NCBI GenBank assembly: GCA_021413945.1
Contig: JAIOPK010000017.1
Location: 62,001 to 126,000 of the forward strand
Direction: 5' to 3'
DNA: 64,000 bases
Origin: Candidatus Uhrbacteria bacterium
GTDB taxonomy: Bacteria > Patescibacteriota > Patescibacteriia > 2-12-FULL-60-25
Below are positions 23,119 through 35,649 of the stretch, in pieces. The position numbers and the translations under genes are program-made. Every line of letters starts with the position of its first letter. Position 1 is the stretch's first letter. The notes beneath the pieces are model-generated. The model worked only from the letters and a program-made list of their open reading frames with translations. It did not search any database and was not told the origin of the DNA.

Positions 23119-23832
23119 ATGGCCTTCGTTTTAAAGCGCGTAAACGGCACCGGCAAGCTCGGCCCCGACTTGGTCGAGTTGCGCGAGCGTGCCGGTCTCT
23201 CGCTTGAACAGGCGGCAAAAGTTGCCAAGCTCACCCCGTCGTTCTTGCGCGCATTGGAAGAGGAAGACTGGAGTGGTTTACCCGATCCTGTCTATGCCGA
23301 GAAATTATTAAAATCATACGTCTCGTTCTTTGGCGTCAACGAATCCTACTATCTCCATAAATTTCGCGAAGGTCTCCGCACACGCGAGATCGAGCGCAAC
23401 CCCGCGGATTTTTTGCCAAGACCCGTAAAGCTCGGAGCAACCGCTCTCGTTGTCACCCCGCGCATTATCGCCGCCGTCGGTTTTCTCTGTTTCGTTTTTT
23501 TACTCGGCGGCTACGTGTATGTCCAAGCCCGCGCCATGTCGCTCGCACCCGATCTGGAAATCGTAAATCCGGTCGACGGCCTGCGCGTCGATGATCCGCA
23601 TGTCGTCATCCAAGGCCAAACACTCTCCGGATCGATTGTCGATATCAACGGCGTCGAGGCTACCGTCAGGCCTGACGGAAGTTTTTCTCATGAAATGAAT
23701 GTTCCACGTGGAACAACATTGATTCGTATCGTTTCCCGCCGCCGCCACGGTGCGGAATCCGTGGAAGTCAGACGCGTGATCTACGATCGCGCTCCCGTCA
23801 CCGCGCTTCCGGAAGAAGAGGTCACGCAATAA
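23119..23832 (+). CDS. RodZ-like helix-turn-helix membrane protein
   Basis: 237 residues: N-terminal HTH (LRERAGLSLEQAAKVAKLTPSFLRALEEEDW) typical of RodZ/HTH_25, one membrane span at about 117-137 (IIAAVGFLCFVFLLGGYVYV), and an external beta domain (about 145-225) resembling the Patescibacterial module with NPVDGLRVDDPHVVIQGQT. RodZ links MreB to the wall machinery; no mreB is in the window, so function is inferred from architecture. Its coding sequence contains a parS-like palindrome at 23700. Confidence 0.82.
   Translation: MAFVLKRVNGTGKLGPDLVELRERAGLSLEQAAKVAKLTPSFLRALEEEDWSGLPDPVYAEKLLKSYVSFFGVNESYYLHKFREGLRTREIERNPADFLPRPVKLGATALVVTPRIIAAVGFLCFVFLLGGYVYVQARAMSLAPDLEIVNPVDGLRVDDPHVVIQGQTLSGSIVDINGVEATVRPDGSFSHEMNVPRGTTLIRIVSRRRHGAESVEVRRVIYDRAPVTALPEEEVTQ
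23700..23715. promoter_or_regulatory. parS-like palindrome inside the RodZ-like gene
   Basis: TGTTCCACGTGGAACA is a perfect palindrome differing from the clustered parS sites by one symmetric change per half. This form is a functional parS variant in other bacteria. It is a lone copy 23 kb from the cluster. Confidence 0.5.
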
Positions 23833-28241: not shown

Positions 28242-28904
28242 TCAGGTCGTGGCCATGCGCTGCGCGAGATGCGCGGCGAACGGCTTCTGCGTCACGGGGC
28301 GGACGCGGCGGAGCATAGTGAGACGCTCGTCGAGCCGGGCCGCGAGCGCGGTCAGGTTCGCGTCGTTGATGCGCGAGATGTTCGGGTGGCGGAGCCCCTG
28401 CTCGTTCACCTCGTCCATCTTGTCGCGCGTCGTCTCCTCGAGCTCGCTGCGCAGCTCGCTGACGATGACCTCGAGGGTCGCGGTCAGCGTGCCGTCGGGG
28501 AGCGCCTTGCCGCCGGAGAGCGCGTGGAAGCGCTTCTCGAGCGCCTCGCGCATCTCCCGGCGCCGGCTCTCGAGCATGACGCGCTCGAGCTCCGCGACGT
28601 GGATCGGGTGGAGGCGCTTGATGATCGTCTCCGCCTTCTCCGCGATCGTGCGGTAGCTGTCGCACCCCTTGTGGATGCGCGCGAGCACCGCCATCGCCTT
28701 GCGGATCGTGAGCGTGAGCTTGTTGGGGTTCTTGACCCCGAAGCCCTCGAGCAGCTCGCCCTGCGTGATGCGCAGGAAGCCCTCGAGATCGCCGCGGAAG
28801 ACCGCGACGGGGTGCTTGTTCGCATCCTTGATCTCCGTCTGAACGAAGACGCGGATGGCGACGAGCTTGCCGATGAGCGCGGTGAGAAAGCGGGACTTGG
28901 TCAC
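28242..28904 (-). CDS. hypothetical helical protein
   Basis: 220 residues from GTG (GTGACCAAG) with GGAGG four bases upstream. Almost wholly helical and charged (REMREALEKRFHALSGGK; LARIHKGCDSYRTIAEKAET), strongly G+C-rich codons. No signal peptide. Followed 10 bp later by the two-hairpin module. Possibly a structural or DNA-associated protein; this cannot be decided from sequence. Confidence 0.78.
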   Translation of the reverse strand: MTKSRFLTALIGKLVAIRVFVQTEIKDANKHPVAVFRGDLEGFLRITQGELLEGFGVKNPNKLTLTIRKAMAVLARIHKGCDSYRTIAEKAETIIKRLHPIHVAELERVMLESRRREMREALEKRFHALSGGKALPDGTLTATLEVIVSELRSELEETTRDKMDEVNEQGLRHPNISRINDANLTALAARLDERLTMLRRVRPVTQKPFAAHLAQRMATT

Positions 28905-29986: not shown

Positions 29987-30595
29987 TCAGGCTGCGCGCG
30001 TCACGGCCCTCGGCTCCTTGGCCTTGGGCTTGGTCGCGGCGACCTGCACCGTCAGGAGGAGATCCTGGAGATCCGCGTAGCGGGCCTCCATCTCCTGCTT
30101 CGAGGCGTTCGCCTCGACGCCGACGACGGTGAGCTTGGCCTGCATCGCCTTCTCGTAGACGTTGATCGACCTCACGGTCGACTGCATCTTGGAGAAGAAC
30201 GCCGCCTGCCTCATCCCGATCTCCTGCTCGCACCGATCGAAGATCTCTTCGGTCGACATGCGCCGGAGCTGCTCGGGCTTGGCGCCGAGCCGCATGGCCT
30301 CCTGGTAGGCCTCGGTGCGGCGGTGCTTCCGCGCGTTCAAGCGCTTGGACACCACGACGAGGGCCCAATTGGCCATCCGGTACGGACATCCGCCACCCGA
30401 GAGGTGGACGACGATGAACGCGGCGCGGAAGAGGGTCGGGTCGCTCTCGCCCTTGAGCTCGAGCGTCTGGGAGACCTCGCCCCTGTTGAAGGCGGGGCAC
30501 TCGCCCTGCTGGACCATTCCCTCGCGGACGGTCCGGCCGTCCGGGTTGGAGATGATCGCAGCGAGGGCATCGAGCTTGAGCCTGAAATTCGACAT
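29987..30595 (-). CDS. hypothetical helical protein, 202 residues
   Basis: Start at 30595 chosen for GGAG five bases before the ATG. Helical, with a basic C-terminus (KPKAKEPRAVTRAA). The region CPYRMANWALVVVSKRLNARKHRRTEAYQEA suggests a helix-rich nucleic-acid-binding or structural protein, but no family is recognised. Its leader holds two mutually exclusive hairpins. Confidence 0.75.
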   Translation of the reverse strand: MSNFRLKLDALAAIISNPDGRTVREGMVQQGECPAFNRGEVSQTLELKGESDPTLFRAAFIVVHLSGGGCPYRMANWALVVVSKRLNARKHRRTEAYQEAMRLGAKPEQLRRMSTEEIFDRCEQEIGMRQAAFFSKMQSTVRSINVYEKAMQAKLTVVGVEANASKQEMEARYADLQDLLLTVQVAATKPKAKEPRAVTRAA

Positions 30596-30639: not shown

Positions 30640-30701
30640 CCACACGTTCGATCGAGAACAAAATATTCTCTGCCGAACGTGTGGAACGGGACGTTCCACA
30701 C
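30640..30701 (-). promoter_or_regulatory. switch-like leader of the 202-residue gene
   Basis: Two strong hairpins share the CCACACG segment. One is CGTGTGGAACG/CGTTCCACACG (30678-30702 region). The other is CCACACGTTCG/CGAACGTGTGG with an inner GAGAA/TTCTC stem (30640-30684). Both cannot form at once. The start codon lies about 45 nt further on. Confidence 0.5.
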
Positions 30702-31383
30702 GGGGGTTTGAAAGGTCAATCCGTTTTTTAGGCGGACAGGTGTAAGGAAGAAGGCGGTAAGAACCGAAGTTCGTTCCGCGGTGTGGAGCGCTTGATTCGA
30801 GAGACGCAGATTGCTCCGCCTCTTTCGAGTTAACGTTCCGTCCGTTCGGATGCCCGTGTTCGGGTCCGATCGGGGTTCTTCCATACGCCTGTCAGCCCTG
30901 AGCTCGTCGAAGTATTCCGACGAACGCATTGGAGGTGGATGGTCCGCACTGGTCCGAAGACCGGCAGATCCGAGAAGTCGAGCATTGAGTGGTCCCAGAC
31001 GAATCCGAGTCCACACAACACGCGAGCATCTACTCTGACTTGCGTCAGAGACTCCCTCCTCCAGTGCCTTCGTCCGAAAAAACAAAACAAGACGCTTGGG
31101 GCGTCTCGGTCGGTGCGTTAACAAGACCTCCGCTAGCTTCTAAAAAAAGAAGTAGCAGTCTTAGGTCTCGTCTCAGCTCTCCTTCCAAGACGAATATTAT
31201 TATGTGAAATGCGTTTCCGCAGATCAGACTTCCGACAGAGTCGGAAACCTGAGAGCGGAGCCGAGTGTGTAACCACTGCGGCTCAAGAGAAAAGGAACGG
31301 GTTAGCTTGTTATGTCTTGCGACGGGTCATCTTTGTTGAAAGCCTTGCTCTCAAAGGTGTTGGACCTTCCAACCTCTTCGCGA
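30702..31383 (-). other. non-coding, hairpin-rich spacer
   Basis: No frame here has a ribosome site or protein-like composition. Visible structures on the minus strand: CTCTGAC-GCAA-GTCAGAG at 31028-31047, TTCCGAC-TCT-GTCGGAA near 31228-31244, and the terminator at 31077-31108. A CAGCCCTGAGCTCGTCGAAG sequence at 30894 resembles a dispersed repeat. Confidence 0.5.
31077..31108 (-). terminator. internal terminator in the accessory leader region
   Basis: GAGACGC-CCCAA-GCGTCTTG followed by TTTTGTTTTTT on the minus strand, about 275 bp after the 65-residue gene. Transcripts from the 31.68 kb promoter may end here. Confidence 0.8.
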
Positions 31384-31581
31384 CTAGTTCAAGTCGCGGA
31401 ACGTGCGGCGCTTCGCCGCGTGGGTGCGCTTCATGCGCCGTCCGTTGCCGATTCGGCCTGCCGAGATCGGCTCGATCTGCGCGTAGCAGATCAGTCCGCC
31501 GGAGCGCGTGGGGCAACGCTTGATGCGCGAGGCGAGGAAGGCGTCGATCTCCTGCTGGCTGGTCCGGAAGACGCTGATCAT
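31384..31581 (-). CDS. small basic hypothetical protein, 65 residues
   Basis: Starts MISVFRTSQQEIDAFLASRI after GAGGTG; a GTG two codons earlier is also possible. Very basic C-terminus (GNGRRMKRTHAAKRRTFRDL), suggesting nucleic-acid binding. First gene downstream of the twin-type promoter at 31657-31685. Unrecognised. Confidence 0.7.
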   Translation of the reverse strand: MISVFRTSQQEIDAFLASRIKRCPTRSGGLICYAQIEPISAGRIGNGRRMKRTHAAKRRTFRDLN

Positions 31582-31656
31582 GGGCACCTCGTGGTGTTGG
31601 TTGGGAAGGCGTTTCCGACGACTTGGTCCCTTTCAGGTTAGTCATCGTAACCAAAT

Positions 31657-31685
31657 ACTATAGCACATAGCCAAGATTTTGTCAA
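31657..31685 (-). promoter_or_regulatory. strong leftward promoter (twin of the 55.26 kb promoter)
   Basis: On the minus strand TTGACA, a 17-bp spacer ending TGTGC, then TATAGT. The extended -10 and flanking bases closely match the promoter at 55261. A TAGCCAA lies in the spacer. Confidence 0.8.
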
Positions 31686-31921: not shown

Positions 31922-32184
31922 TCGCGCGAAAACACGCGGCTTGACACGTCATTGTCAGCATGAGCTACCCAAAAAACCGTTAATCGAAGTCCGTCCCGAT
32001 ATCCCCTTCGGGACGCATTTTGATGCTCAATCGCGTGTTTTTGACCCTAATTTAATCGGTCGTTTCAGCCTGCGCGGTCACCATCTCACCCCGACAGTTT
32101 TGTCCTATTCGCATGGCGCGTTTCGTGCTCTGCGAAAGATGGTCCCGTCCGGACAGTTACGAAACCGACATTTTTGATCGCCAC
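31922..32184 (+). other. rpoB leader region
   Basis: No gene seen. Contains the hairpin CGTCCCGA/TTCGGGACG near 31992-32013 and runs in frame into rpoB only over its last 72 bases. Confidence 0.4.
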
Positions 32185-35100
32185 ATGCAAGCGATGCAAT
32201 TCCGCCGCCAGCCTCCCAAGGAAGCCGAGCGACGCTATTTCACGGCCGCCCGTGATGCCATGGCCCTTCCGGATCTTATCGAGATCCAAAAAGCGTCTTA
32301 CCGCTGGTTCCTCGAGGAAGGAATCCGGGAACTCTTTAATGAAATTTCTCCGATCAAAGACTTCATCGGTCGCGATCTCGAACTTTCCTTCGTCGATTAT
32401 TATTTCGACGAACCAAAGTTTGACGAGAAAACCTCCAAAGCCAAGAACGTCAACTACGAAGCTCCGCTTCGCGTGAAGCTCAAGCTCGTGAACCGCCGAC
32501 AGAACTCGGAAAAAGATTCCGAAGTCTATCTCGGCGACGTTCCGCTCATGACCGATCGAGGCACGTTCATTGTGAACGGCATCGAGCGTGTCGTCGTAAC
32601 GCAGCTTGTGCGATCGGCCGGTGCATTTTTTGCCGCCGAGGTCATGCACAATCGCCGCTACTACGGTGCAAAAATTATTCCAAACCGCGGTGCGTGGCTG
32701 GAATTTGAGACCGACGCCAACAACGTGATCTGGGTCAAGATCGATCGCAAACGCAAAGTCGCCGCCACGGCCCTTCTGCGCGCATTTGGTATTGGCGCCA
32801 ACGAGGACATCATGAAGTTGTTTGAGGAAGTCGATGTTCACCCGTTGAATCACTACATCGAATCAACACTCGCCAAAGACGTCTCCTCGAATGAAGAGGA
32901 AGGTTACATTGAAGTCTACAAGCGCATCCGCCCGGGAGATCTCGCGACATCGGACAACGCCAAATCGTTGATCCACTCGATGTTCTTCAACTTTGACCGT
33001 TACGACTTGGGTCCGGTCGGCCGCTACAAATTCAACAAGCGTTTTGGTTTTCCGACCGTTCATACGGAAATGGTGAAGGAAGAGAACCGCATTCTCACCA
33101 AGGAAGATCTCGTAAATATTTTAAGTGAAATCATCCGCTTGAACGTCTCGCAAGCGGAACCGGATGACGTCGACCACTTGGGTAACCGCCGCGTCCGCGC
33201 CGTTGGTGAACTCGTGCAGAGCCGTTTCCGCATCGGTCTCGCTCGCATGGAGCGCATCGTGAAAGACCGCATGTCGACGATGGACATCACGCTCATCAAT
33301 CCGGCCAAGCTGATCAACGCTCGCCCGGTCATCGGTGCGATCCGCGAGTTCTTCATGAGCTCCCAGCTTTCGCAGTTCATGGACCAGACCAACCCGCTCT
33401 CGGAGCTTGAACACAAGCGCCGTCTTTCCGCGATGGGTCCCGGTGGTTTGACCCGCGAGCGCGCCGGATTCGATGTCCGCGACGTGCACCGCACGCACTA
33501 CGGCCGCATTTGTCCGATCGCTTCACCGGAAGGTCCGAACATCGGTCTCGTGGGCCACTTGTCCTGCTACGCCCGCATCAACGAGTACGGCTTCATTGAA
33601 GCTCCGTATCGTTTGGTAAAGAGCTGGGCCAAGAACGATGGCAAGGATGCGATCGGGGAGACGCTCCGCGTGGATGTCCGCGATGGCGAGGGGAAACTCG
33701 TCGCGGAAGCCAATACGGAAGTCGACAAAAAATTGGCCGAGAAAATGACCAAAGTTTCTGTCGATAAATTGCCGATCATCCCGACCGTCACAACCGAGAT
33801 CGTGTACTTGAACGCCTTCACGGAAGAACAGGGCACAACCGCTCCCGCGACAACGCAGATCGGCAAGGACGGAAAATTCCTCGTCGAGCGCGCCGCCGCC
33901 CGTAAGAACGGAGAACCGACCGTCGTTGACGTGCATGAAATCGACTACGTCGACGTTTCTTCCAAACACATTTTGTCCGTCGGTACGTCGCTCATTCCGT
34001 TCGTGGAACATGACGACGGTCACCGCGCACTCATGGGAACGAACATGCAGCGCCAGGCCGTGCCGTGTATCAAGCCGGATGCGCCGATCGTCGGAACCGG
34101 CGTCGAGCGCCGCGTCGCCATCGACTCGGGTCATGCGATTATCGCGCAAGAAGACGGCGTGATCGTTTCCGTTTCCGGTAAGCACATCGAGTTCCAGTCC
34201 GCCGATGGAACGATGCGCCGCTACGAGCTCATCAAGTTCCAACGCTCCAACCACTCGACCTGTATCAACTACCGCCCATCGGTCAACAAGGGTCAGAAGG
34301 TTTATGCCGGAGAAGTCCTCGCCGACGGAACATCCGTTCAGCGCGGTGAACTCGCTCTTGGTCAGAACCTCATGTGCGCCTTCTTGTCATGGGACGGCTA
34401 CAACTACGAGGACGCCATTATTTTGTCCGAACGTCTCGTACACACCGATCGTTTCACCTCGATTCACATCGAGCACCACGTCATCGATGTCCGCGACACA
34501 AAACTCGGACCGGAAGCCGTCACTGCCGACATTCCGAACGTCTCGGAAGAAAAACTTCGCAACTTGGATGAGCACGGCGTCGTGCGCACGGGTGCGGAAG
34601 TAAAATCCGGCGACATTCTCGTCGGTAAGATCACGCCAAAGGGCGAGACGGATCTTTCGGCCGAAGAAAAATTGCTTCGCGCCATTTTCGGCGAGAAAGC
34701 CCGCGATGTCCGCGACTCCTCGCTCTACCTCGAGCACGGTGAAAAAGGAAAGGTTGTCGATATTAAAGTATTCTCGCGCGACAATGGCGACAAACTCCAG
34801 CCGGGAGTGTTGAAGCAGATCGTCGTGTCCGTAGCCGACCTCCGCAAAATTCAAGTTGGAGACAAGCTTGCCGGCCGCCACGGTAACAAGGGTGTTATCT
34901 CCAAGATCGTCAAAGTCGCTGACATGCCGTTCTTGGAAGACGGAACTCCGGTCGACGTGATTCTCTCACCGCTCGGTGTCGTTTCGCGTATGAACTTGGG
35001 TCAGATTCTGGAAACCCACTTGGGCCTCGCCGCCAATGCGCTCGGGTATGTTGTCGCAACACCGGTGTTCGACGGCGTTCCGGAAGACATTATCCGCGAG

Positions 35101-35649
35101 GAATTGAAGAAAGCCGGCTTCCCGGAAGACGGAAAGATCGCGTTGTACGACGGACGCACCGGCGACCGTTACGATCACAACCCGACCATCGGCTACATCT
35201 ATATCTTGAAGCTGAACCACATGGTCGAGGACAAGATTCACCAGCGCTCCATCGGTCCGTACTCGCTCATCACCCAGCAGCCGCTTGGTGGTAAGGCGCA
35301 ATTTGGAGGTCAGCGCTTTGGTGAAATGGAAGTCTGGGCTCTCGAGGCCTACGGCGCCGCTCACACGCTTCAGGAAATTCTCACGATCAAGTCGGACGAC
35401 GTCCCTGGCCGCTCCAAGGCTTACGAAGCCATCATCAAGGGCGAGCCGATCCGCAAAGTCAACGTTCCGGAATCCTTCAACGTGCTCGTTCGCGAATTGA
35501 AGGGCCTTGGTCTCGATGTCGAACTACTCAAAGACAACCGCCGCATCGACTCCGATGCCGGTCCGCGTCCCGAACATTTCCGCACGCGCCCAACCCTCGA
35601 CACAAAGGCGGAAGATTCCGAGTGGGGCCCGGCTCCGACCGATTTCTAA
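32185..35649 (+). CDS. rpoB: RNA polymerase beta subunit
   Basis: 1154 residues from the ATG at 32185 (MQAMQFRRQPPKEAERRYF). Upstream in-frame ATG at 32113 adds 24 residues without rpoB-like character; 32194 is another option. Conserved stretches: SSQLSQFMDQTNPLSELEHKR (rifampicin region), RICPIASPEGPNIGL, GDKLAGRHGNKGVIS, and the C-terminal GGKAQFGGQRFGEMEVWALE. Forms the catalytic core with beta-prime, encoded 25 bp downstream. No Shine-Dalgarno sequence. Confidence 0.97.
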   Translation: MQAMQFRRQPPKEAERRYFTAARDAMALPDLIEIQKASYRWFLEEGIRELFNEISPIKDFIGRDLELSFVDYYFDEPKFDEKTSKAKNVNYEAPLRVKLKLVNRRQNSEKDSEVYLGDVPLMTDRGTFIVNGIERVVVTQLVRSAGAFFAAEVMHNRRYYGAKIIPNRGAWLEFETDANNVIWVKIDRKRKVAATALLRAFGIGANEDIMKLFEEVDVHPLNHYIESTLAKDVSSNEEEGYIEVYKRIRPGDLATSDNAKSLIHSMFFNFDRYDLGPVGRYKFNKRFGFPTVHTEMVKEENRILTKEDLVNILSEIIRLNVSQAEPDDVDHLGNRRVRAVGELVQSRFRIGLARMERIVKDRMSTMDITLINPAKLINARPVIGAIREFFMSSQLSQFMDQTNPLSELEHKRRLSAMGPGGLTRERAGFDVRDVHRTHYGRICPIASPEGPNIGLVGHLSCYARINEYGFIEAPYRLVKSWAKNDGKDAIGETLRVDVRDGEGKLVAEANTEVDKKLAEKMTKVSVDKLPIIPTVTTEIVYLNAFTEEQGTTAPATTQIGKDGKFLVERAAARKNGEPTVVDVHEIDYVDVSSKHILSVGTSLIPFVEHDDGHRALMGTNMQRQAVPCIKPDAPIVGTGVERRVAIDSGHAIIAQEDGVIVSVSGKHIEFQSADGTMRRYELIKFQRSNHSTCINYRPSVNKGQKVYAGEVLADGTSVQRGELALGQNLMCAFLSWDGYNYEDAIILSERLVHTDRFTSIHIEHHVIDVRDTKLGPEAVTADIPNVSEEKLRNLDEHGVVRTGAEVKSGDILVGKITPKGETDLSAEEKLLRAIFGEKARDVRDSSLYLEHGEKGKVVDIKVFSRDNGDKLQPGVLKQIVVSVADLRKIQVGDKLAGRHGNKGVISKIVKVADMPFLEDGTPVDVILSPLGVVSRMNLGQILETHLGLAANALGYVVATPVFDGVPEDIIREELKKAGFPEDGKIALYDGRTGDRYDHNPTIGYIYILKLNHMVEDKIHQRSIGPYSLITQQPLGGKAQFGGQRFGEMEVWALEAYGAAHTLQEILTIKSDDVPGRSKAYEAIIKGEPIRKVNVPESFNVLVRELKGLGLDVELLKDNRRIDSDAGPRPEHFRTRPTLDTKAEDSEWGPAPTDF

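Follow-up and report, generated by a model that had tools for sequence, protein, structure and literature searches.

Mutually exclusive hairpins and a tandem structured RNA in a putative leader divergent from rpoB in a Candidatus Uhrbacteria genome

One segment in the leader of a 202-residue gene of a Candidatus Uhrbacteria bacterium can pair with either of two others, and the initial annotation likened this to a riboswitch or attenuator choice. Are the exclusive stems real, are they kept in relatives, and is the choice between them used? The window analysed here is the whole 64,000-nt stretch (G000:C12:62001-126000), from a genome of 1.05 Mb in 23 contigs (G000 below) whose RpoB N-terminus is 83-87% identical to those of its nearest named relatives, recorded as Candidatus Uhrbacteria or Patescibacteria group bacterium. 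Regulation in Patescibacteria is, in our judgement, little explored.

The exclusive hairpins and their locus

All of the stems described in the initial annotation are present, on the minus strand, which is also that of the 202-aa reading frame (Table 1). We refer to the three segments as A, B and C. A and B form an exact 11-bp hairpin, with A running one base beyond the end first given for it, and B and C form an 11-bp stem that encloses an inner hairpin, including the GAGAA/TTCTC pairing noted before. B is shared, so the two pairings are exclusive. The distance to the start codon, put earlier at about 45 nt, agrees with the 44 nt between the end of C and the ATG.

Table 1. Features of the leader and its surroundings, in window coordinates
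Feature	Position	Strand	Remarks
202-aa ORF (P0001)	29987..30595	minus	ATG at 30595; no known family
Segment C, CGAACGTGTGG	30650-30640	minus	partner of B in the later hairpin, the more stable one
Inner hairpin GAGAAUA/UGUUCUC	30670-30654	minus	tip of the B-C stem
Segment B, overall	30674..30688	minus	overlapping registers for A and for C
Segment B, C register, CCACACGTTCG	30684-30674	minus	partner of C
Segment B, A register, CGTTCCACACG	30688-30678	minus	partner of A
Segment A, CGTGTGGAACG	30702-30692	minus	partner of B in the early hairpin
Conserved anchor 13-mer, GGATTGACCTTTC	30710..30722	minus	20 nt before A; identical in G002, GGACTGATCCTTC in G014
Element copy 2	30739..30889	minus	R1 44.4 bits, E 8.9e-9; R2 74.3 bits, E 1.5e-12
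Element copy 1	30926..31067	minus	R1 37.4 bits, E 3.6e-7; R2 61.6 bits, E 6.7e-10
Terminator-like hairpin with T-run	31080..31108	minus	just upstream of copy 1; equivalent in same place in G002
Promoter-like TTGACA-17-TATAGT	31657..31685	minus	11/12; TTGACA..TATAGT at the corresponding place in G002
rpoB	32113..35649	plus	six RNA polymerase beta domains; divergent from leader

The 131-nt leader folds on the minus strand at -43.7 kcal/mol (z -4.3), a value equalled by none of 200 shuffles; the plus strand (z -1.6) does not stand out, 17 of 200 shuffles being as good. In a strict scan for A-B-C triples the leader scores 22 bp combined, compared with a best of 18 bp in 80 shuffled window strands, which carry 0.15 matches per strand. 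Real sequence is richer in triples than shuffles are, with 9 of 136 random 200-nt stretches reaching the 2-in-100 level, and the case therefore rests on conservation and not on shuffles alone. The shuffles together with conservation in relatives with changed letters (see below) rule out a chance origin of the triple, and the exclusive stems are confirmed as a real feature.

The remaining strong matches of the triple scan in the window lie at ~180-680, within an array at 126-736 that consists of nine TGTTTCACGTGAAACA sites, eight of them exact and the ninth with a single mismatch. The array resembles the ParB parS site, and this end of the window may therefore be near the replication origin. 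A lone copy of the palindrome with two mismatches, TGTTCCACGTGGAACA, lies far from the array at 23700-23715.

A search of 57 genomes with the 202-aa protein matched two, its own and G002 (26% identity, E 8.4e-10), and the G002 homologue is fast-evolving. No relatives were found in the genome and viral contig collections searched, and comparison with Pfam, PADLOC and NCBIfam gave nothing of note and no recognised DNA-binding domain. A single-sequence structure model (pLDDT 48) is too poor to judge DNA binding. Two other features of the neighbourhood can be recorded. First, the promoter-like site and the terminator-like hairpin bound a separate transcript-like stretch of ~570 nt (31080-31657, minus strand), of which 81 nt (31283-31203) are conserved in G002. 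Second, a loose paralogous protein family with the motif RIHKG..SY..I occurs at the rpoB-divergent loci of G000, G002 and G011, its members being at 28242-28904 (minus strand) of the window and in L009 and L016.

Conservation of the stems and modelled order of folding

Of the 37 family genomes in which rpoB was matched, 36 supplied the region divergent from it; in the remaining one, G010, the match is at the end of a contig, and part of this genome was taken separately. DNA matches to the upstream region were found in G002 and G014, and comparison of homologous leaders, a test set in advance, shows both stems in each of these two alignable leaders. The letters of A, B and C are wholly different among the three genomes and yet every pair is Watson-Crick, with no G-U among the 26 A-B and 36 B-C pairs counted. 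In the order G000, G002 and G014, A-B has 11, 7 and 8 bp and B-C has 11, 11 and 14 bp, with the inner helix inside B-C in all three; the 13-mer GGAYTGAYCYTTC precedes A by 20, 20 and 23 nt, and C ends 44, 37 and 29 nt from the ATG. The frame upstream of the ATG in the window is open for ~40 codons, but a coding leader was rejected: the frame of the 13-mer relative to the ATG differs between G000 and G002/G014, and we treat the leader as noncoding for this reason.

In a strict scan of the 36 regions, the triple is at the equivalent place in G000, G002 and G014 only. G008, G012, G022 and G057 gave matches at other places or in the form of AT-rich or plain palindromic repeats, and G011, which by eye looked like a fourth such leader, is no better than its shuffles (34 of 60). 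The gene downstream in G014 has no detectable homology to the 202-aa protein, so the leader is not dedicated to one gene family and is older than, or independent of, the gene that it precedes.

Stems without G-U pairs suit a DNA-level repeat as well, in which X, reverse X and X are protein-binding sites (for example, for the downstream protein regulating itself) or form a recombination hairpin at a gene-exchange boundary, with RNA folding secondary. The perfect inverted repeat of A-B and the different genes downstream in G014 and G000 are consistent with this. However, an operator needs no inner helix between B and C, P0001 lacks a recognised DNA-binding domain, and the 11-mer is confined to its own two places, with an exact-match search of the 1.05-Mb genome giving no further site. 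There is room for an operator used at this leader alone, and we consider a DNA-level site as a whole to be distinctly unlikely. No phage DNA relatives of the leader were found.

Folded in isolation, the A-B hairpin has -16.8, -11.6 and -13.7 kcal/mol and the B-C hairpin -26.7, -38.8 and -40.0 kcal/mol in G000, G002 and G014 respectively. B-C is thus the more stable by 10 to 27 kcal/mol, which makes a free two-state equilibrium unlikely in any of the three leaders. In a model of the growing transcript P(AB) is 0.94-1.0 until C is being made, after which P(BC) is ~1; modelled in this way, A-B forms first and B-C replaces it after C has been transcribed. Computation thus shows stems that are conserved with compensating changes in two homologous leaders, and an order of A-B and then B-C. 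One of the closer parallels is with cotranscriptional strand-displacement hairpins, in that A-B is an early local hairpin which a later, long B-C hairpin replaces.

The same energy gap means that A-B may be a mere passing intermediate. B-C could then be a static hairpin, protective or ribosome-positioning in the 5′ UTR, with A-B a by-product of the repeat, and its dominance at equilibrium and its inner helix in all three leaders count in favour of this. A nevertheless remains complementary to B in all three despite their different letters, and a static hairpin seems to us a rather unlikely account of the leader.

The comparison with an attenuator or riboswitch has held in part: the exclusive stems are kept in relatives, but there is neither a terminator nor consistent control of the start site. 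In trp-type attenuator leaders a middle segment, ahead of the gene, has a choice of two partners, one on its upstream and one on its downstream side, and B resembles it in pairing with either A or C. A-B-C differs in having no U-run terminator in either state and no identified leader peptide. No U-run follows B or C and a terminator scan found nothing at A-B-C, which argues against an intrinsic-terminator attenuator; the sole terminator-like hairpin with a conserved U-run is the one upstream of element copy 1. Constrained folding of the three leaders gave opposite or small shifts at the Shine-Dalgarno sequence and start codon, the unpaired fraction of the latter in the A-B versus the B-C state being 0.33 versus 0.69 in G000, 0.74 versus 0.0 in G002 and 0.11 versus 0.31 in G014. 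Both the terminator and the anti-Shine-Dalgarno read-outs were rejected, and with access to the start site so inconsistent we speak of ordered refolding and not of a start-site switch.

A tandem four-way-junction RNA upstream of the hairpins

Just upstream of A-B-C are two tandem copies, of ~150 nt each, of a four-way-junction element that was missed in the initial annotation. Each consists of a closing stem, P1, and three arms. Among 55 copies aligned by fitting to a covariance model, 51 of 54 pairs are altered on both sides, and 84.0% of cells are paired compared with 60.1% when shuffled and 35-43% when slid. An alignment of ten copies by MAFFT is unfitted, although its structure was drawn from the folds of the same sequences and in alignment A1 the seeds are off by one base at some ends; in it, 36 of 54 pairs are doubly changed and 78.6% of cells are paired, versus 64.6% shuffled and 34-44% slid. 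The compensatory changes thus exceed both the shuffled and the slid controls, as expected of a new structured RNA. The 5′ strand of P1 is nearly fixed as GGAGG, and two apical pairs, G-U (columns 141-179) and G-C (142-178), are invariant in 55 of 55 copies; the invariant wobble suggests specific recognition.

Model R1, built from the ten MAFFT-aligned copies, recovers both copies in the window, as does model R2 (Table 1). We note a weak third match outside the window at G000:C2:162486-162623 (R1, E 0.078), which is absent with R2 at E 0.001.

The element is an uncatalogued RNA without an Rfam match. At gathering score the window gives tRNAs only and the loci of 19 relatives a single tRNA; a search of 1.2 kb around A-B-C at E up to 10 gave nothing near threshold, and two strong element loci at E up to 1 gave sub-threshold matches only. 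The tmRNA and RNase P RNA of this genome score above their cut-offs elsewhere (C12:195271-195692 and C12:126818-127253) and were discarded as identities. No description of the element was found in a literature search that lay mostly outside subscription papers, and passages of PMC11665869 mention riboswitches solely as tools.

Several classes of RNA resemble the element in part. Tandem riboswitches (e.g. glycine) also place two structured modules from a single family one after the other in a 5′ leader, but the modules here are four-way junctions with an invariant GG..CU apical core and without an Rfam match, and small, unrelated genes follow them. GOLLD, ROOL and OLE RNAs are likewise exceptionally structured and noncoding; the element differs from them in its smaller modules, in matching no Rfam family at gathering score and in its chromosomal location beside rpoB or the region of the ribosome recycling factor. 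Translational riboswitch platforms likewise have their exclusive stems behind a conserved structured RNA and ahead of the start codon, and A-B-C departs from them in its lack of consistent Shine-Dalgarno masking and its varied downstream genes.

Distribution of the element and possible uses of the refolding

Within the 36 rpoB-divergent loci R1 gives 68 matches at E up to 1, and 29 of these loci have one below E 0.01. With R2 the element is found in 35 of 41 family genomes, the same 41 having been drawn for the order as for the family, and most often in two copies; G014 has one copy by both models. A sample of the class comprised 285 genomes, of which at least 33 have a match at E up to 1e-4; at least 14 of the matching genomes belong to seven families other than this one, these being lower bounds with ten candidates scored per genome. 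When 48 rpoB loci from named bacteria were searched, matches below E 0.1 came from L053 (Candidatus Uhrbacteria) alone, which indicates few false positives. All R2 matches placed in rpoB loci point away from rpoB, and outside the family the element is also divergent from rpoB in, for example, G112 and G140. A second type of locus is a region that combines the ribosome recycling factor with a class II tRNA synthetase, presumably glycyl-tRNA synthetase (e.g. G199, G229 and G242).

The surroundings of the element suggest either that it serves as a general 5′ leader module for genes that change fast or that it is an RNA gene followed by genes of that kind. In 19 of 68 clusters the first copy is preceded, at 30-60 nt, by a TTGACA-like promoter (17-nt spacer, at least 10 of 12 positions), and a terminator-like hairpin is just upstream of the element in 14 and downstream of it in five. 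In several genomes the element is 28-60 nt before a likely start codon (G023 +28, G024 +39, G006 +56), and the first reading frames past it are mostly small and unlike between genomes. G242 has a separate promoter for each copy and a small ORF after each. In G199 and G229 a promoter 30-41 nt before the pair and an intrinsic terminator 14-30 nt past it favour an RNA gene, at least there. That the tandem pair is a stand-alone RNA acting in trans, with A-B-C a mere downstream spacer, would also fit its recurrence at two types of locus. However, no more than five of the 68 clusters have a downstream terminator, one of these being inside the G014 B-C hairpin, elements often lie directly before start codons, and the conservation of A-B-C in three leaders would demand a separate reason; we think this explanation fairly improbable.

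A-B-C is not a general part of the element. At the 2-in-100 level 6 of 67 clusters have a triple behind the element, which is no enrichment over the 9 of 136 random stretches, and this comparison gives no support as a group to apparent extra cases in G007, G005 and G020. These counts bear on a classical riboswitch, with the tandem elements as aptamers and A-B-C as expression platform. Two features are what a riboswitch would have: the conserved, highly structured tandem RNA, with its invariant apical core, lies directly upstream of A-B-C, and the stretch from there to the start codon holds two exclusive stems. Exclusive pairing is also found in both homologous leaders with different letters. 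Yet the platform is in three leaders only, there is no U-run or consistent anti-Shine-Dalgarno step, the RNA has no Rfam match, and the downstream genes vary by genome, unlike most riboswitch regulons. A riboswitch of this kind is very improbable.

The explanation that we tentatively prefer, at somewhat less than an even chance, is that A-B-C is the 3′ end of a long structured leader RNA, in which the tandem elements are followed by an ordered hairpin exchange used as a timed step. A heavily structured 5′ leader would be transcribed from the minus strand, divergent from rpoB, with the two elements first, then the 13-mer, and the exchange 20 nt further on. As polymerase passes, the tight A-B hairpin would form; when C emerges ~40 nt later, strand displacement would take B from A and the longer B-C hairpin would persist. 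The exchange, most likely a timed one-way folding step, may determine whether ribosomes, or a bound factor, get to the downstream gene, or at what time they do so, and the tandem elements upstream would influence it. The presence of the triple in three leaders only counts against such use.

Possibly, though on the unlikely side, the tandem RNA is a class-wide, undescribed RNA of ABY1-like Patescibacteria with a biochemical function of its own, and A-B-C is one lineage's read-out of it. Such an RNA may be an RNA-level sensor, a ribosome-recruiting platform or an RNA machine. A highly structured RNA that has stayed in tandem across a family and in other families of the class, that lies at rpoB or near the ribosome recycling factor gene, and that has strong promoters and an invariant apical core is a concrete target in the search for new RNA function; the exclusive hairpins, which one lineage has attached to it, make a small refolding device that can be tested.

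Two minor observations concern individual loci. Between the element and the ORF, L019 (G003), L018 (G020) and L024 (G027) contain tRNA-like stretches that have matched ends and a GGTTCRA resembling that of a T-arm, and which neither ARAGORN nor Rfam calls as tRNAs. In L029 (G007) the element occurs three times, the copies being similar and flanked by repeats. Two of the three sit immediately ahead of unrelated small ORFs, an arrangement that resembles duplicated leader-plus-gene units.
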